Part shown: piece after piece, positions 1,071-18,454 of the stretch
How the letters are laid out: the number at the start of each line of letters is the position of its first letter
Numbering within the stretch: the first letter of the stretch is position 1
Notes under the pieces: model-generated
Seen by the model: only the letters and a program-made list of their open reading frames with translations
Told to the model about the DNA's origin: nothing
The model's database searches: none
DNA from: a virus
Direction: 5' to 3' (one strand)
Virus record (IMG/VR): IMGVR_UViG_3300034061_002136
Span: 1 to 20,434 of that record
Length of the DNA: 20,434 nucleotides
Position numbers and translations under genes: made by a program

Positions 1071-2435
1071 TTACTTTAATGTGGTTTTAAGGTTTTTCTT
1101 TAGTTCAACTAAATCTTCTCTGTACATATCAATCGGCTCCTTCTTTTTAATCTCAGCCAATTCAGCTTTCTTTTCAGAAACCTCGTTTAAGAGCTGGTCG
1201 TAAGTTTCTTTAGTTAATGAATGAATTGGCATGTTCAATAGGTAATTGTACGATCCATTAACCTCATCGAAACCGGCGGTCTGTAAGTAGCTAATGATTT
1301 CTTTACGTGGAACGTTATTGATCTTTAGTTTACCATCAATGATTAGCTTTACGAACTTCGCTCTATTTGATAAGTACACCAATTCCTCGCCGTATTTCTT
1401 GATTAGAAAGGCTTTACGTTTTGAATAGAAACCTAATCTGAAATTAACGAAGTATTCCACCACCTGCGAAACATCTTCGAATATGATTAGCTTGCCCTTT
1501 TCGTTCAAACACGTCAAGTTCTCAGTCTCAGTCTCAATCATCTTTAGAGTCTGATCCAATTTGCCCTTTGCAATTAAGTCAGAGAGAGTTGCTCTTGCGA
1601 ATTTAATGGTGTAATTGATTCCATCAGTTGAGTTATCTTCATACGAGTAAATGATACCCCTGTCTTGTAAGGAGTTAAGATGAGTCTCGTATTTCTGAAA
1701 GGTCATTGACGGCGGAAGCTCCGTGATGTTGACAGTTGTCGTATTCTGGATCTCATAGACTCCGCGCATTACGTATTGATTCGTTCCAGTAACGTTCTCA
1801 ACTGGGCCAGAATATTCCTTCCACCAAGGTAAAAGCTTACCGACCTTCTTTCCATCAAGCACTTTTAGGCAAGAATCAACAAGATCCAGAGGATTTCTGT
1901 TTAGGATATTCGTGGCGAATCCTACTGCAATTCCCGAACTACCGTTCAATAAAACGGTTGGGATAATTGGTAAAAAGAATTTAGGTTCAATTGTGTTACC
2001 TTCCTCGATCTGATTCTCTAGTAATTCAAAATCCTTGTAGAGCAATCTAAAATTACCGGTTAGCTTAGTTGAAATGTAACGAGCTGCACCAGCTTCAGGA
2101 GATCTTAAGGATCCGAACTGGCCGATCTCATCAAGTAAAGGTAGGGAATTCTTGAATGACTGTGCCATACCAATGATTGCACCATTTAATGAGCCGTCAC
2201 CATGGTGATAATGCGCATCGGCTGCAATCTTTCCGCCTAACTGAAATATCTTTAGTGGCTTCTCATTGCCTGACCTCCAAACTTTATCAGCAATGTAAAT
2301 GATCTTACGAGCCGTAGGTTTAAATCCATCAATCACCGAGGGGATCGCTCGATTTTCTAACGTGTACATACCGTACATCGCATAGTCTTGATCCAAATAC
2401 TCAGTAACTGTTTTGCTAGTTTTTAGTTGCATCAT
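1071..2435 (-). CDS. 52: DNA topoisomerase II medium subunit (T4 gp52-like, GyrA/ParC type)
   Basis: This is the DNA breakage-reunion subunit of a type IIA topoisomerase. It cleaves both strands through a tyrosine and passes a second duplex, relieving strain at phage replication forks. The 454 residues match T4 gp52 in scale (about 440) and lack the large GyrA C-terminal wrapping domain. The N-terminal winged-helix region has the typical IPSVIDGFKPTARKIIY (31-47), a HYHHGDGSLNGAI segment (75-87) and the catalytic AARYIST with Arg119-Tyr120. A tower and coiled-coil region follows, ending in a Lys/Glu-rich helix. Either of two adjacent ATGs (2435, 2432) could start it. The start overlaps the SulP gene end by 20 bases, and the motif TTATTTTAGTAAAATATT lies just upstream. 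The ATPase/TOPRIM partner is at 4024-5859. Confidence 0.97.
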   Translation of the reverse strand: MMQLKTSKTVTEYLDQDYAMYGMYTLENRAIPSVIDGFKPTARKIIYIADKVWRSGNEKPLKIFQLGGKIAADAHYHHGDGSLNGAIIGMAQSFKNSLPLLDEIGQFGSLRSPEAGAARYISTKLTGNFRLLYKDFELLENQIEEGNTIEPKFFLPIIPTVLLNGSSGIAVGFATNILNRNPLDLVDSCLKVLDGKKVGKLLPWWKEYSGPVENVTGTNQYVMRGVYEIQNTTTVNITELPPSMTFQKYETHLNSLQDRGIIYSYEDNSTDGINYTIKFARATLSDLIAKGKLDQTLKMIETETENLTCLNEKGKLIIFEDVSQVVEYFVNFRLGFYSKRKAFLIKKYGEELVYLSNRAKFVKLIIDGKLKINNVPRKEIISYLQTAGFDEVNGSYNYLLNMPIHSLTKETYDQLLNEVSEKKAELAEIKKKEPIDMYREDLVELKKNLKTTLK

Positions 2436-3555
2436 GTTTTAATATTTTACTAAAATAAAATACCAAAGTTCCGAAAATTACGCCTATTGCTAAATTACTA
2501 GTAGCTAAGGAGACCAGAACAGTGGTTGTGATTATTGATAAGGTTTCTATTTTTTTAATGTGAAGGCTTGACCATGCACCAGTTTGGTAAACAACAACCA
2601 TCATTACACCAATTAGGCCAGCGAGCGGTAACCGTTCAATCCATTCACCAAACACTAAAATAATGACAGCTAATCCTAGAGCCGCAACTAGGCTAGACAA
2701 CCGGTGCTTTGCACCTGCTCCAATATTCAAGTTGGTTTGTCCGACTAGTACACAGCCTCCCATTGTTCCAAATAGTCCGCTTACTATATTACCTATTCCT
2801 TGAGCTAAGGTTTCTCTGCCCCTGTCACCGGGTTCGTTTAACTTATTGGAAACACTATCGACTGTTAGTAATGATTCGGTTAATCCTGAAATTGCCATAC
2901 CGAAAGAGTATGGAATAACTGCAAGTATTAAAGCAGTAGAGATCGTTGGCACCTTAAATTCCGGTAAGCTTGCGGTGACTGGCGATAGATCGCCGACTGT
3001 CGCAAAGCCTAATGGAATACCAATGAGGGTACCGACTGCGATTGCGGAAAGAGCTGGTGGAAACTTAAATCGTTTTGCTGAGTACATCATTGTTGCGGCA
3101 GACAGGGCAACTACGCAAATGAGCCAAATCGTTTGTGAAACAGTAGGCGAACCTACTTGCAGATACTTTAATTGACTATGTAATATCATTAAGGCCAAGG
3201 CAATTAAAAACCCTGAGATTGCAGCATTCGGTATCTTTGCAAATACTCGCCATGCGCCAGAAGAAAAAATTATCAATTGAATTATCCCAGCTAAAATTAC
3301 TCCCAGAAATAGAGAGTCTATTCCAACCGTAGATACTAAACCTGCCATGATTACAGCGGTTGCACCAGTTGCACCGGAAATAATTCCAGGTCTTCCACCG
3401 AAAATGGAAGTAGATAGTGCCATGAATACTGCAGCCCATAATCCAATTTGAGGAGCCGCTCCAACCAATAGAGCAAATGAAATTGCTTCCGGTACAAGTG
3501 CAATTGCAATAGTTAATCCTGAAAGGACTTCTGTTTTTATTTGATTAATTGTCAT
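2416..3555 (-). CDS. SulP-family anion transporter without STAS domain
   Basis: An integral membrane protein of 379 residues with about ten hydrophobic segments and almost no long hydrophilic region. Near the N-terminus, ALVPEAISFALLVGAAPQIG (19-38) and GGRPGIISGATGATAVI (53-69) match the conserved first membrane segments and substrate-binding loop of SulP/SLC26 transporters, which carry sulfate, bicarbonate or related anions. Typical bacterial SulP proteins are 500-600 residues and end in a cytoplasmic STAS domain. This one stops after the membrane part (FYFSKILKHDATKN), so it is a compact form. It lies between the two topoisomerase subunit genes and overlaps the medium-subunit start by 20 bases, so it is probably co-transcribed with replication genes. 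Most likely an auxiliary metabolic gene acting in the host inner membrane. The family is well supported; the substrate is not known. Confidence 0.88.
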   Translation of the reverse strand: MTINQIKTEVLSGLTIAIALVPEAISFALLVGAAPQIGLWAAVFMALSTSIFGGRPGIISGATGATAVIMAGLVSTVGIDSLFLGVILAGIIQLIIFSSGAWRVFAKIPNAAISGFLIALALMILHSQLKYLQVGSPTVSQTIWLICVVALSAATMMYSAKRFKFPPALSAIAVGTLIGIPLGFATVGDLSPVTASLPEFKVPTISTALILAVIPYSFGMAISGLTESLLTVDSVSNKLNEPGDRGRETLAQGIGNIVSGLFGTMGGCVLVGQTNLNIGAGAKHRLSSLVAALGLAVIILVFGEWIERLPLAGLIGVMMVVVYQTGAWSSLHIKKIETLSIITTTVLVSLATSNLAIGVIFGTLVFYFSKILKHDATKN

Positions 3556-4024: not shown

Positions 4025-5859
4025 TATATCGAAAGTTTAAGTAGCTTTTCCTTACGAGGTTCAGAATCTGATCCGAACCAATCGCTTAGGCTATCTTTGT
4101 ATTGTTTGTCGTTCTGCAATTTAACTAAGACTGGATTATGAATAATATCTCTGTACTCAACATCTTCCAATGCCGCAAGACCTTTTTTGTATTCAACGTC
4201 CCAACCCTTTGCACCAGTTTTCTTTTCCCATTCAGAGTATTCGTCGTTTGAATAGAAAGGTTTTACCTCCTTGCCCTTTTTTGCAACAACAAGTGGGGTC
4301 ATTACCTTAAAGACTCTGTTCTGTTCGAAGAGTTCTGGCCAATACTTATTAAAGAAGTTGATTAGCAGACCGGCAATTGAGTCTCCGTCTGGATCAGCAT
4401 CAGTATAGATGTACACCTTGCCATATCTCAGATCACCTGGTTCCTCTCCTAATTTGATTCCTAATGAAGCCATTAGCTGGACAACCTCATCGTTCTGGAT
4501 GACCCCAGAGTTTGTCATCTCACTAACGTTTAGGAACTTACCCTTTAGTGGAAAGGCTCCGAACGTTTGTGGGTCTCTAAACTTACGAACCGCCGACAAC
4601 GCTGACATTCCTTCAAATATTCCAAGCACGCATTTATTCCGGTCCTTGCCCTTTGCATCAATTAACTTAAGCACTTTAGTGCTAGCTAGAGATTTATTAA
4701 GCTTACGTAGTTCAGCACGCTCTTCGGCATTCTTTTTCTGTTCAATCCAATCAAGTAACGATTGGATTACCTCTGACCCAAATACAGCTTTTGCGAATTT
4801 CTCAGTCACATCATGCTTTGTACCAAAATCTTTAGGTTCAGTGATTAACTTCTCCTTTGTTTGAGATGAGAACGCTGGATTAATTACTGTACAATTTATG
4901 AAAAGAAATACATGATTCTTTATTTCAGAAGGTTTAACATCAACCTTGTGTTTTTTCTTGATCATGGCTCTAAGATACTCTATTACCTGATTCAAGACGT
5001 AGTTCTCATGAGTTCCTCCATCCTTTGTATGGATTGAATTAACAAATGACACTGACTGGAAACCATCCTTTGAAACTCCAAAAGAAATTTCCCAGTCCTT
5101 TGATCTTTCCCAAATTGAATCATTTACGTAGAGATCAACATATTCCTTGAATGTTTTAAACTTATATTTCTCACCGTTGAATTCAAGCTTAAGACCTGGA
5201 TTAGCGGCAGCAATATCGATTACTCGTTTGCGCATCATCTTACAATGAGCATCATCTATTTTCTTCATTTCAAATCTTGAAAGATCTGGAACGTAGGTTA
5301 TTTCAGTAAAGCCTTGAGAAGTTCTGCTTGTCTTTGGAGTGGTTCTCTTTGACATGTTATCGGTGAATGTCTGTAAGAAACGATTCTTTCCGTCAGCCGT
5401 ATCAATCACGAATCTCTTTGAGAAAATATTAACTAATGAAGCTCCCACTCCATTCGTTCCAGCAACGGTTCTGCCCTCATCATCATTGAAATTTGATCCA
5501 GCTCTTAAGTTAGAGAAGATTAATTCAGGAATCCAAACTTTATGTTGTGGGTGTTGAACTACTGGAATTCCACCATTGTCCCATACGGTGATGGTGTCTG
5601 AACTCACAGATACTTTTATTGTATTAATTTTACCAGATCTTTTGTGCTCGTCAACTGAATTCGAAATGATTTCGTCAAACAGCTTTAGAAACCCAGGATT
5701 GTAGGTCAACTCCTCTTTTGAATAGAGGCCGTCTCCAAGAATCCATTCATTTGCGGTGTGGGGCTTTGTGGAGCCAATGTACATTCCAGGTCTTTTGAGA
5801 ACGTGTTCAATCTCATCGAGTAACTGGTATTTCTTTCCTATTTCTTTAGTAGATGCCAT
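4024..5859 (-). CDS. 39: DNA topoisomerase II large subunit (T4 gp39+gp60 fused, GyrB/ParE type)
   Basis: This is the ATPase and TOPRIM subunit of the phage type IIA topoisomerase, partner of the gp52-like protein at 1071-2435. The GHKL ATPase domain shows FDEIISNSVDEH (Glu63, Asn67), WDNGGIPV (Asp94-Gly97) and GTNGVGASLVNIFS (134-147). The transducer loop is SQTKEKL (332-338), with Lys335 expected at the ATP gamma phosphate. The TOPRIM domain follows with FEGMSALSAVRKF (Glu416) and TDADPDGDSIAGLLINFF (487 onward). In T4 these parts are split between gp39 (about 516 residues) and gp60 (about 160). Here one 611-residue frame holds both, so the gene is unsplit. Its stop overlaps the start of a 27-residue ORF (TAATG). 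A weak promoter-like GATACAATAG lies 7 bases before the ATG. Confidence 0.97.
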   Translation of the reverse strand: MASTKEIGKKYQLLDEIEHVLKRPGMYIGSTKPHTANEWILGDGLYSKEELTYNPGFLKLFDEIISNSVDEHKRSGKINTIKVSVSSDTITVWDNGGIPVVQHPQHKVWIPELIFSNLRAGSNFNDDEGRTVAGTNGVGASLVNIFSKRFVIDTADGKNRFLQTFTDNMSKRTTPKTSRTSQGFTEITYVPDLSRFEMKKIDDAHCKMMRKRVIDIAAANPGLKLEFNGEKYKFKTFKEYVDLYVNDSIWERSKDWEISFGVSKDGFQSVSFVNSIHTKDGGTHENYVLNQVIEYLRAMIKKKHKVDVKPSEIKNHVFLFINCTVINPAFSSQTKEKLITEPKDFGTKHDVTEKFAKAVFGSEVIQSLLDWIEQKKNAEERAELRKLNKSLASTKVLKLIDAKGKDRNKCVLGIFEGMSALSAVRKFRDPQTFGAFPLKGKFLNVSEMTNSGVIQNDEVVQLMASLGIKLGEEPGDLRYGKVYIYTDADPDGDSIAGLLINFFNKYWPELFEQNRVFKVMTPLVVAKKGKEVKPFYSNDEYSEWEKKTGAKGWDVEYKKGLAALEDVEYRDIIHNPVLVKLQNDKQYKDSLSDWFGSDSEPRKEKLLKLSI

Positions 5860-6420: not shown

Positions 6421-7575
6421 TCAAATGGGGTTGACTAGGGAAATTTGTTCTACACTGAGTAGTGCTCCGTCGACCCAACCTTGCTTCTGAGCTACCATTT
6501 CACCGATAACCCAAACAAGGCTATTTGGATTCTGGGCCCGTCTGATAAATTCCTCTCTCGATTTATATTTACTGGATAGAGGTTTGTAATAGTGGGTGCC
6601 TTCTTTCCAATAAAACTTCTTCATTCCGGAAAGCGTTGCTCCCGTAAAGTCATCGTTAAGAAGATTTTGAAAATAGGATTCTGGTTTAGACTTAAGGGCT
6701 TCTGCATCTGCATTATCGGAATATGCAACATTAAAAACGTTTCCTTTTATTGGAATTATTTTTCTTAAATTAGAATCAACTATCGTATACGTATTGACGT
6801 CTAAATTTTCAACATTAGCAAAAGCTTTTATAAAACTCTGAGATTCTATATCGTCGTATATTGAGTCCTTTAAAAATTTTCTTAAAACATTCACAGTAAC
6901 TGCAAAGACTATTCCGTCTGCTACATACTTTCCGTTAACTAAAAACTTATCTTCGTTTTTCGTAATTTTGTTTACTTCAACATTAAGCTCAATATTCTTT
7001 TCTCCAATTTCTTGGATAAGTTTTTCGACTACAACAGACCAGTCTACATTTTCAGCTTCATAGCCGGAAACATTATCGTCTAGCCCGTAGTTGTTAATGG
7101 TGTCCATAAACCCAGCATTCTCGAAATCTGTGTAACCCATTCCTTTAACAAAGCTCTCATATCTCTCGCCTAAAGCTTTTTGACCAAATTCTTTAAAGGT
7201 CATTTTCTCCCCTTGATAATCTTTAGACTTTTTCTTGAGTTCTTTAATCATCTCTTTCAAGGGCGGCTCGGGAAATGAATAGTTCATTTCTATCTCGTAA
7301 GTCTTTCTCTTTATTCCTAAATCCTTAAGAAGTTTCTGAAGAGTTTTATCTTTGTCTACTCTAGAAAATTGAGCACCAGTTGGAACTTTAACTCCATCTA
7401 CTTCTTCCATAGATACTCGTCCGCCACATTTACTTTCTTTTTCAAGAATAGTCACTTTAACTTCAGGCCTTCTTTTCTTTAAAAGATAAGCACAATAAAG
7501 TCCGGCAATCCCTCCTCCAATAATAACGATAGACTGGGGATTTTTAAAATCTTCGAATAGTTTTATCAATTTCAT
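6421..7575 (-). CDS. FAD-dependent amine oxidase-like flavoprotein with capsid-targeting-like leader
   Basis: The first ten residues, MKLIKLFEDF, match the shared leader. A Rossmann FAD-binding start follows immediately: SIVIIGGGIAGLYCAYLLKK with G20-x-G22-x-x-G25, the ribose-binding acid Glu45 (VTILEKE) and KCGGRV (50-54), as in amine oxidase, phytoene desaturase and protoporphyrinogen oxidase families. The C-terminal FAD motif is also present: VIGEMVAQKQGWVDGALLSV (about 356-375). The 384-residue length is close to compact flavin oxidases, so it looks intact. The substrate cannot be told from sequence. The gene starts within the stop of the nucleotidyltransferase (TAATG), so the two are translationally coupled and both carry leaders. 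A flavoenzyme with a virion-targeting leader is unusual. The leader could be removed after LFE or retained; no ideal I-x-E-A site is present. Confidence 0.88.
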   Translation of the reverse strand: MKLIKLFEDFKNPQSIVIIGGGIAGLYCAYLLKKRRPEVKVTILEKESKCGGRVSMEEVDGVKVPTGAQFSRVDKDKTLQKLLKDLGIKRKTYEIEMNYSFPEPPLKEMIKELKKKSKDYQGEKMTFKEFGQKALGERYESFVKGMGYTDFENAGFMDTINNYGLDDNVSGYEAENVDWSVVVEKLIQEIGEKNIELNVEVNKITKNEDKFLVNGKYVADGIVFAVTVNVLRKFLKDSIYDDIESQSFIKAFANVENLDVNTYTIVDSNLRKIIPIKGNVFNVAYSDNADAEALKSKPESYFQNLLNDDFTGATLSGMKKFYWKEGTHYYKPLSSKYKSREEFIRRAQNPNSLVWVIGEMVAQKQGWVDGALLSVEQISLVNPI

Positions 7576-8738
7576 TAGGATTTAGGTAGCTTGACTCCTG
7601 GAATTCCCATCAACTGATTGCTTAATGCCCTAATCATTTGAACATGATTTGAAAATTTAACGGTTTCAAACCAGAAAGGAGTTTTAGTCTTTGAATTTAG
7701 AACAACTTGATAATCGCTTAGTCCTGCATATTTCTGTAGAGTCTGAGGATTGAACGCAACTGGCTTTGCAACCAAGTTTCCGCCTTCCTGACGAATCATC
7801 ATTGGTGAAGTAAGTCCTACCATGTTTACCCAACGACCCGATCTTTCAACTTCTCTGGCCCAATCAATATAGAACACAAAAAGACGACGACCTCCCTCAA
7901 CATCAGGGCCCATCACAACGACGGTGTTACCCTTACCGAATGAAACGGACTCGTCTACTACATCAGCTTCAGTTGAGAATTTAGAATCAAGCGCGCCGGC
8001 TGGTTCTGAATAAATGTGAGAGTAAGCTTGCGATTTTAGATCAATTAATTTTCCGATCCAACCTTCATTACGTAATCTCTTAAAAACTAGATTTTCAACA
8101 GAGAACTCTCCGCCCTTGTGTGCAAGCTGTTCGTCTCTTGATCTTGAGATCTTCTTTTTTAGAACAGATGCTCGTTCCATAATATCTTTAGCTTCTTCAG
8201 GTCCAGCTCCTTGGATCTCTTCCATCATTTGCTTGATTGCATAAATGTAGTGGTCTGATTTTACCTGAACGTCTTTTGGATCGACAGTTGGTTGACTGTA
8301 TTCCGGTTTTCTAAGCCATTCACCTTTTAATAGAGAATAAAGGCCAGACGCCAAGTGTAACTGATTTATGTCTTGTGCATAGAGTTCAACATCATATCCT
8401 CCAATATTTACTGGATGTCTTTGATTCCAAACTGTCTTTAAACCTTCCATCGCAATCTTTACTAGTTCGACGTCCGGGTTTATCTTGGAAAGATCCATGA
8501 TGACATGTACGTCAAAATCAGAGTACTTGGTCCAGTTATAGTTGGCTAGGGATCCAGTAAGTTGAATGTCTTCGATTGGAGCACTAACTTTTAGGTCCTC
8601 GTAGAAATCATGAGCGATCTGTAGAAGCTTGGTTCTAAGTTCAGAGTTGATCTCTTCTCCATCCCAGACCATTGGATTCAATTGATCTTGATAGAATTGA
8701 TCCTCGTTTATGAATTCGGTAAATTTAAAAAGTTTCAT
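7575..8738 (-). CDS. Nucleotidyltransferase-fold protein with capsid-targeting-like leader
   Basis: The N-terminus MKLFKFTEFINED carries the shared leader, with a possible prohead-protease site after INE (residue 12). The next domain has the DNA polymerase beta-type nucleotidyltransferase signature: QLTGSLANYNWTKYSDFDVH, with Gly62-Ser63 and the metal-binding Asp74/Asp76, and a later acidic strand YDVELY (Asp116/Glu118) as third carboxylate. Such enzymes transfer NMP groups to nucleotides, RNA or proteins; minimal NTases also act as toxins. A helical middle part (about 155-220) and a C-terminal domain of about 130 residues (VVVMGPDVEGGRRLFVFYID onward) are not recognised. The start lies after an AGATAAATAATTC motif and 13 bases beyond the glycosyltransferase stop. 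The downstream flavoprotein is coupled by TAATG. The catalytic motif is intact, so activity is plausible; the substrate is unknown. Confidence 0.85.
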   Translation of the reverse strand: MKLFKFTEFINEDQFYQDQLNPMVWDGEEINSELRTKLLQIAHDFYEDLKVSAPIEDIQLTGSLANYNWTKYSDFDVHVIMDLSKINPDVELVKIAMEGLKTVWNQRHPVNIGGYDVELYAQDINQLHLASGLYSLLKGEWLRKPEYSQPTVDPKDVQVKSDHYIYAIKQMMEEIQGAGPEEAKDIMERASVLKKKISRSRDEQLAHKGGEFSVENLVFKRLRNEGWIGKLIDLKSQAYSHIYSEPAGALDSKFSTEADVVDESVSFGKGNTVVVMGPDVEGGRRLFVFYIDWAREVERSGRWVNMVGLTSPMMIRQEGGNLVAKPVAFNPQTLQKYAGLSDYQVVLNSKTKTPFWFETVKFSNHVQMIRALSNQLMGIPGVKLPKS

Positions 8739-11415: not shown

Positions 11416-12891
11416 TTATTGACCTGAAATCATTGTCAATATCTGATCCTTAACTGCAAGAATTGCCTCGATCTTACGTTTAGTGTTTGCTTGTTTATCA
11501 AATGTACCGGCAGCGATAGCGGTCTCCATCAGCTTAAAACCTCGTGCGGTCTTAGCTAGAATTGCTTCAGTATCTGCTTCAGAAACAGCTGATCCAACTA
11601 TTAATTTATTGTATAGTTTTGCAGCAAATGTTGAAAGGACTCCGAATTGCTTGAATGAGTCAACGACGTCTTGCATTTTGATTAGCTGACCCATTTCCTG
11701 ATCAACCACATTAACAATTTCCTGTTCAGCATAGGTTGACATTGATTGATCCGCGATTTGCAAGCTGTGACCTGCTGTCATGATCTTGTCTATGATGGCT
11801 CTACCGGTTTTAGCCGAAGCTCCTTCGTCAAGTACCTGTTTAACTGCGCATTCAGCGGAGAGAGGCTTTACTATTGAATCGACTACCTCAGCTGGATATC
11901 CCAATTTGGTGAAGTGTTCTGCTGGATCATCGGACTTCTTAATAGCAATATCATTAATATCATGAGAGGTTCTTACTGTACCGTTATAGTAAATGGTTGT
12001 TCCAACAATGTGTAAAGGATCGGTGGTAGGAACTCCAAAATCGAATATGTTTATCTGTACTGCACCGGTCGCGTATTGTTTCCATGCCCATGTGTTAATA
12101 CACCAATTCGCAGCAGAACATAGGGCCTTTTGAGCAGCTTCCGTTCTGATTGACATTACTACATAACGATCATCGTCATACATCACATTAACTGCAGGCG
12201 CTAGCTCTTCAGCTTGAGCGGCAAGCTTGATTGCACCACCCTCAATGTTTTGAGCATCAGCGAAGTTAGTCGCGTATTGAATGAATGCTGAGATTGGCTT
12301 GTCTAGGAATCGATTGACCTTTTTCATTAATCTTTTCTGAATCTCAGGATCCTCATTCGCTAAGTTCGCGCCAAGTCTGAATAGGGCTTGCTGTTCTTCA
12401 GGAGTTGCGGCACGTGCTTTATCTCTGATTGCTCTCGGCAATTTATCAATGATCCACTTACCCTTTCTACGAAATTCAATTTGAGCGAACTGATCCATTA
12501 AGGCTTCATATCCTGAAATTCTAGCAGCTTGATCTGGATTGCCCTTTGAATATTCTTCAACCGTATGAGGTAATGAATTAATGAATTCTCGGTTATCAGC
12601 AATCTTTGTCAACAATAATTGTAATTGTTCAATTGATATTCTTTGAAGAAACACAAAGTTAACAAACGATCCTGCATAACCACGGTACTTCTCTCCAAGT
12701 AGATCAATGATTTCCTTGTATTTTGGATCACTTAAAGCTTGAGCCTGTTCCTCAGGTGAAAGCTCCTGAACCGGCTTACGTAAACGGTCCGCTAGTCTTT
12801 TCAACATGAAAGACTTTGCTGCTTGCATGTTTTCGTCTATCATCTGGTCCTCATTGGAAATCCAGCTCTCAAATATTCTTAAGTACTTCAT
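11416..12891 (-). CDS. Leader-bearing virion-type protein of unknown function, 491 aa
   Basis: The N-terminus MKYLRIFESWISNEDQ carries the shared leader, with a likely I-S-N-E junction near residue 14. The remainder is mostly helical and charged, but residues about 239-312 form a distinct strand-rich segment: DDRYVVMSIRTEAAQKALCS, then NWCINTWAWKQYATGAVQIN and PLHIVGTTIYYNGTVRTSHD. The W-C-(I/T) turn with the surrounding aromatic residues recalls a motif seen in assorted phage proteins of unknown function; I cannot assign a domain name. The gene starts 6 bases after the stop of the leader-bearing 292-residue gene and is the last of a three-gene run of such proteins. A structural or internal head protein, or capsid cargo, is the best inference. 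Confidence 0.75.
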   Translation of the reverse strand: MKYLRIFESWISNEDQMIDENMQAAKSFMLKRLADRLRKPVQELSPEEQAQALSDPKYKEIIDLLGEKYRGYAGSFVNFVFLQRISIEQLQLLLTKIADNREFINSLPHTVEEYSKGNPDQAARISGYEALMDQFAQIEFRRKGKWIIDKLPRAIRDKARAATPEEQQALFRLGANLANEDPEIQKRLMKKVNRFLDKPISAFIQYATNFADAQNIEGGAIKLAAQAEELAPAVNVMYDDDRYVVMSIRTEAAQKALCSAANWCINTWAWKQYATGAVQINIFDFGVPTTDPLHIVGTTIYYNGTVRTSHDINDIAIKKSDDPAEHFTKLGYPAEVVDSIVKPLSAECAVKQVLDEGASAKTGRAIIDKIMTAGHSLQIADQSMSTYAEQEIVNVVDQEMGQLIKMQDVVDSFKQFGVLSTFAAKLYNKLIVGSAVSEADTEAILAKTARGFKLMETAIAAGTFDKQANTKRKIEAILAVKDQILTMISGQ

Positions 12892-12897
12892 TTGATA

Positions 12898-13776
12898 TTA
12901 GTAGTGGTTTTTAGTAATGATTTTTATTCTAGGATCTGAGATAACTTCCTTCTCATCGCTAGTTAGTCGATTTTTATATTTCCATTCGCTTACAACTAAG
13001 GTAACTTCTTGATCTGTGTTAAAGTAATTGTTCAGAGCCTTAATGTTTTTTCTTCGATTAACAGCTTCAGTAAAGAAGAGTAGACTTTTTAAGTCTTCCA
13101 CTATTTTCTGAATTCTTGAAAAATCCGAATCTGGAAATTTAGAGTTGACTAATTTAAGGAGGAGCTCGTAAAATTGACCTTGTTCTACTTGTTGTGAGGC
13201 ATTAGCCTTAATTGATCTCTTTGTAGAAAAGTCTCGAGAAGTAAAGTCTAGTGATTGAACTAAATATTCCATTGCCTTTTTGAAAAAGTCAAGTTCAGTA
13301 GGCTCATTGAGTCTCTTGATTACCATGTCCATGTCTCTGAATCCAGTTTTTGGAGTAAGACGTCTAACTGTTTGAGACGGGCCAAATAAACCAATTCCCC
13401 AGTCGGTTGTCGTATCTCGTTGGCGGCTTCTTGTAAATTGTAAAGTATGATTTAGTAATTGGGTAAAACTTGAAGATAGAACAACTCCTGACTCTATTAG
13501 AGCTTTGTATTCAGGAGATTCAACAACCTCAATCAACCATGCTAAATCAGGATAAGTTTGGATATCATTGAACCATTCAGTCGAATAAATTCGATGTTGT
13601 GATCCTGTTTTTAATCTGCTCTTGGTGTGAGCGTTGATTTCACGGGTCAGAGACTGTACCTTAGCTGAATATTCTTCAGGCGAAATGATACCAATCTCCT
13701 TAAGACCAGCTAGATCATTTTTCTGTTGTATTAGGGTCTCAATTGAATGTTCTTCAAAAAGTTTAACGTACTTCAA
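12898..13776 (-). CDS. Leader-bearing protein of unknown function, 292 aa, TTG start
   Basis: The reading frame starts at a TTG (13776). The in-frame codons just upstream are TGA GAT, so no ATG is possible, and only this start yields the shared leader MKYVKLFEEHSIE. After the leader there is a Lys/Glu/Ser-rich helical stretch (about 14-55, ETLIQQKNDLAGLKEIG) and then a mainly helical body with a conserved-looking GIGLFGPSQTVRRLTPKTGF segment near residue 125. No enzyme motif, signal or membrane segment is evident. It begins 13 bases after the stop of the Gly-Ser-Ala repeat gene and ends 7 bases before the 491-residue gene, so the three form one unit. It is probably packaged with the head; I do not recognise a family. 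Confidence 0.72.
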   Translation of the reverse strand: MKYVKLFEEHSIETLIQQKNDLAGLKEIGIISPEEYSAKVQSLTREINAHTKSRLKTGSQHRIYSTEWFNDIQTYPDLAWLIEVVESPEYKALIESGVVLSSSFTQLLNHTLQFTRSRQRDTTTDWGIGLFGPSQTVRRLTPKTGFRDMDMVIKRLNEPTELDFFKKAMEYLVQSLDFTSRDFSTKRSIKANASQQVEQGQFYELLLKLVNSKFPDSDFSRIQKIVEDLKSLLFFTEAVNRRKNIKALNNYFNTDQEVTLVVSEWKYKNRLTSDEKEVISDPRIKIITKNHY

Positions 13777-13788
13777 ATCTCATTATTA

Positions 13789-14685
13789 TTATTTTGCAGC
13801 AACTCCAGCCGTTCCAGCGGTACCGGCCGAACCAGCAGAACCTACATTAAGGGCTGCACCGTATTGGGGCTTGTAATTTTGGATCAATGAATTTAATTCA
13901 AGTGCTTTTGCTTTGACCGCATCCTTTGCAGCTGGGTCCTGAGCTGCATTGAACTCTGCTTGAACTTGAGTTAATTTCGCGATTAATGCTGCCTTAACTT
14001 TAGGTTCAATCTCCTTTTCTTTGGCATCCCTTTCAGCCTGAGTTGCGGTCGGTAGCGCCTGAGCATCAAGTAGAGTCTTGATTGATGAGTCTTGTCCAGC
14101 TGCTGCTTGTAAAGCTGGATCATTGATCATTCGTAAGTACGCAGCGACTTGTTTTACTCCAGCCTCTTGCATTGCTTTATCAAAACCGGCAGAAGCAGCA
14201 CCGAACATTTTATCAGCAATATTTCCAGCAGAACCGGCCGAGCCAGCCAAGCCAGCAGAACCGGCTGAACCTGCGGAACCTGAAGCTCCAATTCCATCAA
14301 CTATGTCACCAATTGAATCAATTTTAGCGGAACCGTCCGCCTGTATTGTAAAAAGGTATCTGGCTGAGAAAGCATAATTAGGTTCGCCTCCAGGTAAATC
14401 AGCTAACACACCAGACTGCTCAATAGCAGCTCTACCGCCAGCTGCCTTTAGTGCAGCTATCGCAGTAAGATCAGCGGTTGTTAACATTACTACCAGATTG
14501 AAACCTGAATCGGAGGCTGCCTTTGCATCTAGTATCGCCATTAGTTTGCCTAATTTCTTGGTGCACAGCTTAAATGTCTTTTGATACTCGGTCCATTTGA
14601 TCTTTTTTGTATCTACGAAACTTGTCATTGGGCCAGTCGTCGCTTCACTAATGAACGATTCAAATAATTTTATGTACTTTGGCAT
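13789..14685 (-). CDS. Leader-bearing protein with Gly-Ser-Ala repeats, 298 aa
   Basis: The leader MPKYIKLFESFISEATTG has an ideal I-S-E|A prohead-protease-type site (after Glu14). A small mixed domain (about 25-125) is followed by a low-complexity collagen-like stretch of G-S-A and G-L-A triplets (about 133-154). A helical Ala-rich domain (156-275, with DPALQAAAGQD and EFNAAQDPAAKDAVKAKALE) comes next, and a second G-S-A-G/G-T-A-G tail (282-296) ends the protein. Triplets lack Pro, so a collagen triple helix is uncertain; a flexible or silk-like linker is as likely. It lies directly after the ECF sigma factor and behind ATAAATA-type sequences. Probably a virion or internal head protein; the family is not recognised. 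Confidence 0.75.
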   Translation of the reverse strand: MPKYIKLFESFISEATTGPMTSFVDTKKIKWTEYQKTFKLCTKKLGKLMAILDAKAASDSGFNLVVMLTTADLTAIAALKAAGGRAAIEQSGVLADLPGGEPNYAFSARYLFTIQADGSAKIDSIGDIVDGIGASGSAGSAGSAGLAGSAGSAGNIADKMFGAASAGFDKAMQEAGVKQVAAYLRMINDPALQAAAGQDSSIKTLLDAQALPTATQAERDAKEKEIEPKVKAALIAKLTQVQAEFNAAQDPAAKDAVKAKALELNSLIQNYKPQYGAALNVGSAGSAGTAGTAGVAAK

Positions 14686-14737: not shown

Positions 14738-15283
14738 TTATCGAAGCCCAGTCATAGATAACTGTTTTCGTAATTTTGTCTTGGCATCATGAACATTTGA
14801 CTTGACTGCACCGGCTGTCGTTCCCATGTGAACTGCTGCCTGCTCATAGGATAAATCTTCATACACGACTAGTTTGAAAGCAAGCTGCTGACGAGTCGGA
14901 AGTTTATCGACAATACCTCTAATCAACATTAGCGCTGGCCTATCCGCATGTACATCCTCGGTTACTACGTCAACTCCTTCAATATCAGAGAAAGTTTTGA
15001 CCTTTGTCTTGAATTGTCTAATCCAATTGACCGTTTCATTACGCACGATTCTGGATAACCATGCAGCAAATGGGCCTGTCCCGCTCCATTTATCTAGATT
15101 CATGAAGGCTTTGGCCAATCCTTGGCTCACTGCTTGATCAAGATCGTCTTGATCAGTTAAGTATTTTGCGGCGTTTTTGTAGGCTAGAGGCTTCCACTGA
15201 TCCCACAAATCTGAGAGAGCTCGGTGATTACCGGTTCGGGCCTCATCGACTAATGGGTCGACGTGCTGTAAATTTAAGTCCAT
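14738..15283 (-). CDS. ECF-type sigma-70 family RNA polymerase sigma factor
   Basis: At 181 residues this has the two-domain layout of ECF sigma factors. Region 2 spans about 10-90: DDLDQAVSQGLAKAFMNLDK (46-65) for core binding, then PFAAWLSRIVRNETVNWIRQ (71-90) for -10 recognition. After a short linker, region 4 spans about 124-175: KLPTRQQLAFKLVVYEDLSY, then EQAAVHMGTTAGAVKSNVHD, a helix-turn-helix that would read a -35 element. It has no leader peptide. It is preceded by a TTATTTTAGTATAATAG motif 10 bases from the ATG, so it may control its own class of promoter, and it sits upstream of leader-bearing virion-type genes. T4 uses gp55 as its late sigma; this could be the functional equivalent, but I do not see clear gp55 similarity. 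Family certain, promoter class inferred. Confidence 0.92.
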   Translation of the reverse strand: MDLNLQHVDPLVDEARTGNHRALSDLWDQWKPLAYKNAAKYLTDQDDLDQAVSQGLAKAFMNLDKWSGTGPFAAWLSRIVRNETVNWIRQFKTKVKTFSDIEGVDVVTEDVHADRPALMLIRGIVDKLPTRQQLAFKLVVYEDLSYEQAAVHMGTTAGAVKSNVHDAKTKLRKQLSMTGLR

Positions 15284-15309: not shown

Positions 15310-16134
15310 TTAAGCTGATTTAATAACTGCGGCTAGCGTCTTGGCTCTGTCCCCGACCTGTTTGGCCCATGCGGACCTTAGCATCTCTTCTGATGCAGCA
15401 TCGAAGTTTTTCTGTTTGATGTGGGTTAGGAAATTAGTAAACTCCGAGAGACCCCTTTTACCTAAATTAAAAACCATTTCAGTTAAGACTCCCTGAACTT
15501 GAGTCGGTAGATTCGGCATGTTCGGAACTAACTCCTGTGCATTAACTTTAGCCTGCTTAAGGTCGGTGAAGAGCAGAGCAGTTATCTGTTCTTGAGTCAA
15601 TGGTGATTTACCAGCCTTGACCTTTTCAGGATTAGCTCCTACCTTTTTTAACTGAGCAGTCGCGTCTTCACGATTAAGATTAAAACCCACTCCTACTGTT
15701 GGAATCTGTCTGGAATCCAAGTACTTAAAGGGTTTTGAGCCTTCATGTTTTATAACTCGGTCCTTGATAGAAGCAAGGACTGGATCAGTTGGAGGCGGTG
15801 GTGCTTTAAATGAGTTAAGGTATTGTTCGGCTCTAATGTTCTTGATGTGGGTCATTATCTGATTCTTGTAGTCAGAATCCATAATTCCCAGCTCGCCGTT
15901 GATTGCATCTCCGACACTTGGATACTCCCATGATTTCTGTGGATCCTCGTGACCTGCCTTCAAGGCCTTATTGATCTTGACCAATGAGTATACATCCGGA
16001 ATTGATTTAATGGCGGCTGTCAAAGCATCCTCGTCCGTGCCCATTCCATCGGTTGCTGTCTGAATTTGCGCAGCGATTTGGTCTGCAGTTAAGGCTTCGT
16101 TTATCCAGCTTTCAAATAGTTGTATGTGTTTCAT
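15310..16134 (-). CDS. Annexin-like repeat fused to T4-type lysozyme (GH24), with leader
   Basis: The leader MKHIQLFESWINEA has an ideal I-N-E|A site. Next, residues about 16-60 (TADQIAAQIQTATDGMGTDE DALTAAI in two parts) carry the G-M-G-T-D-E signature of an annexin repeat. A Pro-rich linker (APPPPTDP, 111-118) leads to a glycoside hydrolase 24 domain (119-274). Glu131, Asp140 and Thr146 in KHEGSKPFKYLDSRQIPTVG have the same 9 and 6 residue spacing as Glu11, Asp20 and Thr26 of T4 lysozyme, and SAWAKQVGDRAKTLAAVI matches the lysozyme C-terminal helix. It should cleave the MurNAc-GlcNAc bond of peptidoglycan. With a capsid-type leader and no signal peptide, it looks more like a virion-carried lysozyme for entry than the lysis endolysin, although the latter cannot be excluded. 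Coupled to the upstream gene by TAATG. Confidence 0.92.
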   Translation of the reverse strand: MKHIQLFESWINEALTADQIAAQIQTATDGMGTDEDALTAAIKSIPDVYSLVKINKALKAGHEDPQKSWEYPSVGDAINGELGIMDSDYKNQIMTHIKNIRAEQYLNSFKAPPPPTDPVLASIKDRVIKHEGSKPFKYLDSRQIPTVGVGFNLNREDATAQLKKVGANPEKVKAGKSPLTQEQITALLFTDLKQAKVNAQELVPNMPNLPTQVQGVLTEMVFNLGKRGLSEFTNFLTHIKQKNFDAASEEMLRSAWAKQVGDRAKTLAAVIKSA

Positions 16135-17534
16135 TAGTTATTCTCTTTCAATAATTTAGAAAGTCTTTCGACCTCTGCAAAATCTCTACGATCAAGAGCT
16201 TGATCGATTAGATCTTGAATGTCAGACTGACTCATTGAATTGGATGAAGCTCTCGGTGCAAAGTCATTATCCATTGCATAATCGAAACTTGAGTCTCCGT
16301 ACTCGTCGTCTTCTCCGTATTCTGAGCCTTGCATTGAGTCTTCCCATTCAGCAAGCTCATCCTGTATTAACTGGATCAATTGCTGAACGATTGCTTTTGC
16401 CTTTGGCATTGCTTCACGAGCAGCCGTCGTTTCTTCTTCTGAATATGGCGGTTCATTTTCGCGAACCTGTCGGTAAAGAGGAGCTGCCATGAATATTAAT
16501 CTCATTAGCTCAAGAAACTTTTGATCAGGAACAACACTCGCATCGATCATCTTACCCCAAACATATTCGCGACCGTTATCAATGGTCTCAACTTCTGGAA
16601 AAGTATAGATGAAGTCCCTAAGATCAGCGGCAGTTAACTTAGCACGCTTAAGATCCTGTACCTCGTCCTGAGCAGTGTCAGCATTCATAAAGACCTTAGC
16701 GATCGTCTCATCATCTAGATGTGCGAGACCACCCTGATTTATTAGACCGTATATTGCTTTAACCGCTTCATGAAACAGCATCGCCTGGTCCATGCCAAGG
16801 ATTATTAGCTTGGCCGTATCTGATTCGTGATTCTCTTCTGGAGTTTCGTCATCTTCTTTTGGAGTCTCTTCAGCCTCTTTTTCTTCTTTTGGCTTCCATT
16901 CAATTTTAGAAATTCCGCTTAGACCGTTTCCGTTCTCAATCATTGCTGCACCAACCTCTTCTGGAATTCTCCAGTCTCTGGCATTACAAATATCCGTGAT
17001 CTTTATTAGGAGGTCGACCATACGAGTCGCACGTTCTTCTCCGAATAATTCAGTTAGACCTGCCATATTGGTCTCGCCCATTAACATCTTCTTTGAATTG
17101 ATTGCTTCGCCTTGGGCAATCATGTTTAGGATTTTACGCTTGTGAATCGCTGCCTTAGTATCCTCGTCCTCTATCTCCTTGAAGCTTGGCTTGTCTTGGT
17201 CTTCCGGATCTTCTTGATCCATTTTCTGCTTCATTTCCCTAGGATTTGTTGGGATTCTAATATCAAGCTCGGTCTCTCCAAGAATGGAACCGTATTGCTC
17301 TTCAATTACTGAACGAGTTAGGTCCTCAATCTGTTTTTCCTTGCCTCTTTGCATTGACTGCACTTCCATTACGAAACGCATTAAGTTTCCCATTTCTCTG
17401 CCTAATCTCTGTTCAATATCTCGAGCACTGGCCTCAGCTCTCTTGTTCAAGGAGGTTAGGTATTCAGGAGAAACTGCCGGATTTCCCTTGATATCGGCCT
17501 CATTCATGAATTGTTTAAACGATTTCATTTTCAT
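16134..17534 (-). CDS. Leader-bearing acidic virion-type protein, 466 aa
   Basis: The leader is MKMKSFKQFMNEA, with an M-N-E|A site; the second Met (17528) gives the tighter match MKSFKQFMNEA and may be the true start. The body is helical and strongly acidic. It contains a segment RFVMEVQSMQRGKEKQIEDL (about 51-70) leading into EEQYGSILGETELDIRIP, a Glu-rich low-complexity linker (about 214-240), a helical domain with DLRDFIYTFPEVETIDNG, and an acidic Ser/Asp tail ending DRRDFAEVERLSKLLKENN. The overall look is that of conserved T4-like phage structural or prohead-core-associated proteins, but I cannot assign a T4 number. It overlaps the 74-residue gene by 20 bases and the lysozyme fusion by 1 base (TAATG), so the three are one operon. 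Confidence 0.78.
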   Translation of the reverse strand: MKMKSFKQFMNEADIKGNPAVSPEYLTSLNKRAEASARDIEQRLGREMGNLMRFVMEVQSMQRGKEKQIEDLTRSVIEEQYGSILGETELDIRIPTNPREMKQKMDQEDPEDQDKPSFKEIEDEDTKAAIHKRKILNMIAQGEAINSKKMLMGETNMAGLTELFGEERATRMVDLLIKITDICNARDWRIPEEVGAAMIENGNGLSGISKIEWKPKEEKEAEETPKEDDETPEENHESDTAKLIILGMDQAMLFHEAVKAIYGLINQGGLAHLDDETIAKVFMNADTAQDEVQDLKRAKLTAADLRDFIYTFPEVETIDNGREYVWGKMIDASVVPDQKFLELMRLIFMAAPLYRQVRENEPPYSEEETTAAREAMPKAKAIVQQLIQLIQDELAEWEDSMQGSEYGEDDEYGDSSFDYAMDNDFAPRASSNSMSQSDIQDLIDQALDRRDFAEVERLSKLLKENN

Positions 17535-17739
17535 TCTCTAATTCTTTTAAACGATCCATCACGTCTTCGGCTTGAGCTTTTGCTGGCTCAGGTTGCTTAA
17601 ACGGTTTCTTGGTAGGAATTGGACCTGGTTTTGGTCTGGTTGCGGGTCTTGTTGGAGCAATGGTCGGTGCCGGCTTAGTTGCAGGTTCTGCAGCATAAAA
17701 CTCGGTTATGAATTGCTCAAATAGTTTAATGTGCTTCAT
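17515..17739 (-). CDS. Pro-rich leader-bearing small protein, 74 aa
   Basis: The leader MKHIKLFEQFITEF (I-T-E|F site) is followed by a Pro/Lys/Thr/Ala-rich disordered stretch, about 15-53, including RPKPGPIPTKKPFKQPEPAK, and a C-terminal acidic helix (AEDVMDRLKELENENEIV). The length is close to T4 prohead core proteins such as gp67 (80 residues), but the composition differs (basic and Pro-rich rather than acidic), so I do not equate them. Short Pro-rich proteins of this layout are, to my recollection, common in T4-like phages from aquatic sources. It is first in a three-gene unit, preceded by ATAAATA-type motifs and a hairpin. A role in the prohead scaffold or as capsid filler is plausible. 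Confidence 0.72.
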   Translation of the reverse strand: MKHIKLFEQFITEFYAAEPATKPAPTIAPTRPATRPKPGPIPTKKPFKQPEPAKAQAEDVMDRLKELENENEIV

Positions 17740-17842: not shown

Positions 17843-18454
17843 TTAAAAATCACGAAATTGAGGTTGGCCCAATCGGTAATGATAATCTCTATTTGCAAAA
17901 CTTTTGAATCGACGATGTAATAATCTTCTAATCGTTGATAATCTGGTCGTAATGGTCGAAACGGATAATCCAATCTCTTTAGAGATGTCCTTGAGCGCTA
18001 GTTCATTAACATGGTACAATTCAAAGATTCGAGCATAGGTTGGTCCTAATTTGTGGAGTACTAAGCGCGTTGCGACCTCGTGTAGTCGGTGAGGGTTCAG
18101 CACGATTTCTTTGGGCTCAACGCTTTCTTCAAATTTGTCGGGCCTTACATAATCATCATCTGCCCAATCTGGAATTAATTGACTCTCCAAAACGACCGGT
18201 GTTTCCAACCTCTTTTTTACGGCCTCACACCAGCCCCAATAACAAGTCTTCATCAAGTAATTTACCATGTGAACCTCATTCTCAAATTCAAGTTCTCGAT
18301 TCTTGGCTGAAACTGCGCTACGAATTGCGCAGAACTGGGCATGCTCAAGATCGTCTTCATGGCTAACGAATCCACCCCATCTCTTTATCGAGACCATTAC
18401 AAATCCTCGACCCTGCCCAAAGAATTTGACTATTATCTCATCGGTTATTTTCAT
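17843..18454 (-). CDS. Sigma-70 family-like transcription factor, 203 aa
   Basis: The C-terminal part (about 126-186) is a sigma region 4-type helix-turn-helix: HKLGPTYARIFELYHVNELA, LKDISKEIGLSVSTITTRLS, then TIRRLLHRRFKSF. The N-terminal half fits a divergent region 2: SHEDDLEHAQFCAIRSAVSA (31-50) and HMVNYLMKTCYWGWCEAVKK (62-81), with the acidic D-D-L start of core-binding helices and aromatic residues where the -10 helix should be. An acidic linker (about 88-120) separates them. It is probably an alternative or late sigma, more divergent than the ECF factor at 14738-15283. The length is close to T4 gp55 (185 residues), but I see no decisive gp55 motif. It starts 4 bases after the 35-residue membrane ORF and ends before a hairpin, forming a compact two-gene unit. 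Confidence 0.82.
   Translation of the reverse strand: MKITDEIIVKFFGQGRGFVMVSIKRWGGFVSHEDDLEHAQFCAIRSAVSAKNRELEFENEVHMVNYLMKTCYWGWCEAVKKRLETPVVLESQLIPDWADDDYVRPDKFEESVEPKEIVLNPHRLHEVATRLVLHKLGPTYARIFELYHVNELALKDISKEIGLSVSTITTRLSTIRRLLHRRFKSFANRDYHYRLGQPQFRDF

Follow-up and report, generated by a model that had tools for sequence, protein, structure and literature searches.

A phage protein that joins a capsid-targeting-type leader and a single annexin-like repeat to a T4-type lysozyme domain

Using a combination of profile searches, structure prediction and genome comparison, our analysis of a 20,434-nucleotide stretch of viral DNA (positions 1 to 20,434 of IMG/VR record IMGVR_UViG_3300034061_002136; hereafter the window) describes a 274-residue protein in which a capsid-targeting-type leader, a single annexin-like repeat, a proline-rich linker and a GH24 lysozyme domain follow one another. 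The annexin repeat is a module for binding membranes, known chiefly from animals. As read from sequence, this arrangement suggests that a large T4-like virus of bacteria injects an enzyme that cuts the wall and is fitted to hold on to membranes. In the reading that we prefer, to which we give a probability of about one half, the product is a head-packaged, protease-trimmed and injected GH24 muramidase whose annexin repeat docks the enzyme at the membrane during entry.

All four parts had been named in a first-pass annotation of this DNA and all four are present: the leader MKHIQLFESWINE followed by A, the G30-M-G-T-D-E35 loop, an A-P-P-P-P run at about residues 111-115, and the GH24 domain. 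The interval that it gave for the gene, 15310-16134, is correct, and the strand, which it had left unstated, is minus: frame 1 of the plus strand contains many stops here, and the minus strand holds one uninterrupted reading frame, whose ATG overlaps the stop codon of the upstream gene in the sequence CTAATG. The architecture is therefore confirmed, and it recurs in the majority of the IMG/VR loci recovered, which numbered 26 in one search, including contigs of 253 and ~271 kb, with identities in the N-terminal domain down to ~56%. Because all of the parts are conserved in most of these loci, we do not regard their association as chance. One relative in IMG/VR, L030, is without the lysozyme.

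Table 1. Coordinates of the lysozyme gene, its parts and the leader-bearing genes discussed in the text; a slash marks a putative cleavage point.
Feature	Position	Strand	Remarks
Lysozyme gene	15310..16134	minus	leader, annexin-like repeat, Pro linker and GH24; 274 aa; intact ORF
Leader MKHIQLFESWINE, residues 1-13	16096..16134	minus	capsid-targeting-type propeptide; cleavage at E13/A14 inferred
Single annexin-like repeat, residues 14-106	15817..16095	minus	five helices; AF2, Foldseek, hhalign
A-B loop GMGTDE, residues 30-35	16030..16047	minus	annexin type II Ca2+-site motif, from sequence
E81	15892..15894	minus	in the hhalign register, stands opposite the acid of the annexin D-E loop (SEL / GDF position)
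Pro-rich linker APPPPTDP, residues 111-118	15781..15804	minus	kept in GH24-bearing relatives
GH24 / T4-type lysozyme domain, residues 129-267	15334..15750	minus	catalytic E131, D140, T146
Upstream leader protein MKMKSFKQFMNE/ADIKGNP	16134..17534	minus	466 aa; stop overlaps lysozyme ATG
Leader protein MKHIKLFEQFITE	17515..17739	minus	74 aa
Leader protein MPKYIKLFESFISE/A	13789..14685	minus	298 aa, collagen-like
Leader-like protein MKYVKLFEEHSIE	12898..13776	minus	
Leader-like protein MKYLRIFESWISNE	11416..12891	minus	
Flavin amine-oxidase-type protein	6421-7575	minus	leader-like start MKLIKLFEDF
Nucleotidyltransferase-type protein	7575-8738	minus	leader-like start MKLFKFTEFINE/D
Leader-tagged VanY(-GH19) and CHAP enzymes	L047:3186-4436, L047:5353-5979, L057:8543-9844	plus, minus, plus	253/271-kb relatives

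The C-terminal domain is confirmed by sequence as a GH24 muramidase. PF00959 matched residues 129-267 with E = 3.8e-11 and 43.8 bits, above the curated cut-off of 22.3, and the E131-D140-T146 spacings of 9 and 6 equal those of E11-D20-T26 in the T4 e lysozyme, as read from the T4 record, which bears out the T4-like spacing claimed at first pass. T4 lysozyme was likewise recovered by phmmer against the PDB (1.6e-9) and by Foldseek (9e-7). A PHROG search returned an endolysin as its top match and several tail lysozymes among the others, and also matched PHROG 2083, ‘internal virion lysozyme motif’, with an E-value of 2e-7.

For the N-terminal domain, profile and fold evidence taken together lead us to conclude that it is very probably homologous to annexin repeats. 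Single-sequence searches contributed little: PF00191, the model named in the first-pass annotation, gave no match to the 274-residue protein up to E = 10 and none at the annexin-lysozyme locus in scans of whole records, and across eight family members the sole Pfam family seen was PF00191, in one member, at E = 0.19. A weak PF00191 match elsewhere in the 253-kb phage was set aside as noise, since 7 of 14 control genomes also gave matches. Neither tblastn of the domain against annotated phages nor a search of bacterial genomes for its relatives found any. A profile of the domain run against all PDB sequences, by comparison, returned almost only annexins, with E-values that apply to whole chains, summed over their repeats, and alignments that cover mostly helices A-C.

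Profile-profile alignment supplies the connection. With a profile of the domain as query, hhalign against 12 animal annexin repeats (from ANXA5 and ANXA6, verified against the PDB) aligned the repeat in full, with a score of 32 and a Prob of 82; none of 300 column shuffles scored above 23.7, and the reversed profile reached 9.3. Because masking the six motif columns lowers this score to 10.7 and removes the signal, the link to animal annexins, taken by itself, depends on the motif. Against a bridging set of 14 annexin repeats, 13 of them taken from viral contigs and the other from a contig of a bacterial MAG, a profile of 14 relatives scored 49.7 with a Prob of 96 over 86 columns, the best of 150 shuffles reaching 16.7, and this set aligns in turn with the animal annexins at a Prob of 98.4 and E of 5e-15. 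With the motif masked, the score against the phage annexins is a marginal 22.8, where 250 masked shuffles gave a maximum of 23.6 and a next-best value of 17.6.

Structure prediction points the same way. AF2 on the full-length protein with 7 sequences gave low confidence in the N-terminal part (~50), and we therefore repeated it on the domain alone with 14 sequences; this template-free model of residues 14-115 has a pLDDT of 86.9 and contains five helices, which are 12, 9, 16, 7 and 13 residues long. Annexins, or chains fused to annexin A2, make up 44 of its best 50 PDB matches in Foldseek; probabilities reach 0.98, TMq is mostly ~0.5 and the E-values are all at least 0.2. Since AF2 may know the motif from training, this evidence is not fully independent of the alignments. 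Pure convergence on a short motif was considered and rejected: the alignment and the helix pattern span the whole domain, and the acid of the D-E loop is invariant. Thus the annexin-like repeat proposed at first pass is supported by the bridging phage annexins and the fold comparison, but not by single-sequence Pfam searches.

The type II site of annexins is formed by backbone carbonyls of the GxGT loop together with an acid of the D-E loop. G32, T33, E35 and E81 are invariant across the 14 N-terminal domains, and G30 and D34 are less constant (11/14 and 10/14). GxGTD is a motif of annexins, and the D-E loop Glu is less conserved in those of bacteria (PMC3894181). Binding of Ca2+ or lipid by the repeat is plausible from these residues. 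Unlike eukaryotic annexins, the phage protein carries a single repeat in place of the core tetrad of four, and its C-D connection is several residues longer; with one repeat and drift at D34 and G30, affinity for Ca2+ or lipid may therefore be low or lost.

Annexins have been described as common across eukaryotes and scattered among bacteria, and a 2014 survey found none in viruses (PMC3894181); our literature search, of incomplete coverage (most subscription journals and preprints lay outside its scope), found no paper on a phage annexin. When animal annexin repeats were used to query IMG/VR, they nevertheless returned further phage proteins with single repeats, L102 and L103 lying above the PF00191 cut-off at 31 and 25.5 bits, and extension from these first phage annexins led to more families. 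Together the further families are represented by L102, L103, L104, L112, L124-L132, L137 and L144. In many of these further families a hydrophobic segment lies ahead of the repeat, and in L103, L104, L112 and L137 this stretch resembles a membrane span by eye. The L030 protein (4962-5777, plus) shares leader and annexin domain with the lysozyme family and has an unrelated C-terminus, which found no match in PDB sequences, Pfam or PHROGs. Two others, L138:3845-4453 (plus) and L139:3806-4435 (plus), on contigs of 134 and 373 kb, begin with the leaders MKYIKLYETF and MKHIKLFEAF and continue into a GTGTDE annexin repeat without a lysozyme. The combination of leader and annexin without lysozyme occurs in phages of 134-373 kb, of which those of 343 and 373 kb encode an S77 protease and gp23. 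Single annexin repeats recur, then, in several phage protein families, one of which fuses the repeat to a lysozyme, and many of these proteins bear head-packaging-type leaders or membrane-span-like segments.

The leader of the lysozyme belongs to a pattern of MK, then F, then an aromatic residue, then [IVL]-x-E before A, S or N, and it is itself conserved in the form M K ... F.. W. N E A/S. On one contig (L006:5320-6141, plus) an in-frame stop replaces the Trp codon of the leader (FES-stop-INEA), which may be a sequencing error, a mutation or recoding. In the 253-kb relative the pattern occurs at 24 of 308 gene starts and 5 of 1398 internal methionines (Fisher p 3e-14), and in the 271-kb relative at 19/312 and 4/1400 (Fisher p 2e-11); chance probably accounts for a few of these matches, and the leader is common to ~20 mostly unrelated genes per relative genome. 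Applied to T4, of which four stretches were scanned, the same pattern picked out IPII and IPIII, both MKTYQEFIAE/A, among its five matches. In T4, internal proteins enter the prohead core by means of capsid-targeting sequences (CTS), which gp21 then cuts off, and the trimmed proteins leave the head with the DNA (PMC3012670, PMC5694885, PMC7411985). The genomes of the relatives contain genes for an S77 prohead protease of T4 type and for a gp23 capsid protein; the propeptide of the latter ends in GSLNE/S or GSINE/S, and the proteases carry RVNE/A or KINE/A near their N-terminus, sites of the same [ILV]NE/[AS] type as the INE/A of the lysozyme gene. The window itself holds neither a protease nor a capsid gene, both being known from relatives only. 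For the 253-kb relative, the major capsid protein (L040:2731-4410, minus) is closest, at 32-39%, to those of uncultured huge phages and of Prevotella Lak phages.

Depending on how strictly the pattern is read, 6-10 genes of the window begin with a leader-type N-terminus, and the order of the 466-residue leader protein and the lysozyme is retained in a 271-kb relative. Within or beside this cluster lie two sigma-70-type factors (14738-15283 and 17843-18454, minus). At the edge of the window, a gene that continues past the contig end (2-544, minus) has the leader-like start MIKSFTQFIAG and two HxT motifs. It weakly matches 2'-5' RNA ligase and Acb1, an anti-CBASS protein (E ~3e-4), and its product is a candidate head-packaged counter-defence enzyme. 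A SulP-type sulfate permease (2416-3555, minus; E 4e-39) adjoins topoisomerase II genes and is a possible auxiliary metabolic gene.

The leader also marks other wall enzymes. The 253-kb relative encodes a VanY protein, of GH19 type in its C-terminal part, behind the leader MIKGFDQFTGKINE/AS and a CHAP protein behind MKLIKDFNQFITE/AE, and the 271-kb relative a VanY protein with the leader NKILNFKQFLTE/AA, read from an internal Met. The leader thus tags three classes of peptidoglycan hydrolase (GH24, VanY-GH19 and CHAP), along with a nucleotidyltransferase and many unknown proteins. The gp5-like spike of the 253-kb relative is a 270-residue OB protein without lysozyme, so leader-tagged cargo appears to have taken over wall cutting from the tail spike. 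The head packaging suggested at first pass accordingly gains indirect support from the leader family, from the S77 protease and gp23 with their matching cleavage sites, and from the lysozyme-free spike, and it is from these sequence features that we infer packaging itself.

We posit that a large T4-like myovirus carries the gene product inside its head, as an ejection protein. Judging from the leader family, residues 1-13 would act as a capsid-targeting sequence that pulls the protein into the prohead core, where the T4-type S77 protease, given the matching sites, would cut after I-N-E to leave a mature protein of 261 residues in the head. By analogy with the T4 internal proteins and Alt, this protein would exit with the DNA at infection. 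The annexin repeat could then bind, or help to cross, a membrane of the envelope, perhaps through Ca2+ held at the G-x-G-T loop and E81, and the Pro linker might keep the GH24 domain at the interface of membrane and peptidoglycan, where it would make a local opening in the wall, either to let DNA enter or to remodel the host.

Two other readings concern where the lysozyme acts. It may be a phage endolysin working from within at lysis, with the annexin-like domain as a membrane or wall anchor and a leader that has no role in the head or a dual one. The e lysozyme of T4 is an endolysin of the GH24 family and is free, the top PHROG match is an endolysin, and the annexin-lysozyme is the sole PF00959 locus in the genomes of the large relatives that carry it; yet the leader pattern is conserved and shared with the mostly unrelated genes described above, the gene sits within a cluster of leader genes, and in one 253-kb relative the VanY-GH19, CHAP and SLT wall enzymes could serve as endolysin. 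The first-pass annotation had named action only as a free endolysin as one outcome that would speak against its proposal; the single GH24 locus leans towards such a role, and the leader on three hydrolase classes leans away from it. Given that leader, head-packaged and injected wall enzymes are therefore favoured over a lone endolysin, a dual role being possible, and we consider the endolysin reading unlikely. Alternatively, the protein could be a tail or baseplate lysozyme, substituting for the lysozyme domain missing from gp5 and not carried in the head, as the OB protein of the relatives and the several tail lysozymes among the PHROG matches would allow. A capsid-targeting-type leader with a prohead-protease-type site argues against a place in the tail, as does the position of the gene in one relative (G001), at ~172 kb and far from the baseplate genes at ~72 kb, and we regard this as highly improbable.

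A further reading keeps the protein in the head and takes the annexin repeat to be a module for docking to the prohead core, for multimerisation or for association with DNA, so that the lysozyme alone would act after ejection. Variation at D34 and G30 among relatives fits such a role, as do the lower conservation of the D-E loop Glu in bacterial annexins (PMC3894181) and the occurrence of leader and repeat with an unrelated C-terminus (L030) or on their own (L138, L139). The invariance of G32, T33, E35 and the D-E loop acid E81 in all 14 domains, and the repeats that follow membrane-span-like stretches in several other phage proteins, weigh on the opposite side, and we judge this reading quite unlikely. 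A broader proposal, which we advance tentatively and think doubtful, is that annexin repeats are a general delivery module of contractile injection particles: large T4-like phages, in their leader-tagged head cargo, and PVC systems alike would attach a single repeat to the enzymes that they inject, so that these dock at membranes or cross them, and in such phages a set of head-packaged GH24, VanY-GH19 and CHAP enzymes would have replaced the tail-spike lysozyme.

If head packaging of the annexin-lysozyme holds, annexins would be linked to injection machines, both phages and PVC systems, and large phages would have a testable route through the wall that does not depend on gp5 lysozyme. The leader, for its part, allows virion cargo to be predicted, for uncultured large phages, on the basis of sequence alone.

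Like IPI-IPIII and Alt of T4, the window protein has a short propeptide ending in x-E/A, and its lineage has a T4-type prohead protease and gp23; its leader of 13 residues is a few residues longer than those of the T4 internal proteins. We know of no T4 internal protein that is a wall hydrolase or carries an annexin repeat. The GH24 fold and the Glu-Asp-Thr spacing are those of T4 gpe and gp5, but gpe is free and gp5 part of the tail spike, and both are without the leader and the annexin repeat. The internal virion lysozymes of the podovirus T7 gp16 type are internal head proteins with a wall hydrolase used for entry; to our knowledge, they have another protein context, no CTS leader and no annexin repeat. 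With the single-repeat annexins of bacteria, which are sometimes fused to other domains, the window protein shares the GxGTD loop and the five-helix repeat, and the 2014 survey of these proteins mentions no lysozyme fusion (PMC3894181). By analogy, the closest functional precedent is found in the toxins of PVC phage-tail-like systems, where a single annexin domain placed before a C-terminal enzyme has been proposed to help breach target membranes (PMC3482391). As in the toxins from Haliangium and Microscilla (PMC3482391), one annexin repeat stands ahead of the C-terminal enzyme. In contrast to these, which carry toxin domains, are processed by a PVC metallopeptidase and travel in a phage-tail-like vehicle, the window protein combines its repeat with a GH24 muramidase, a phage as vehicle and a leader of the capsid-targeting type.
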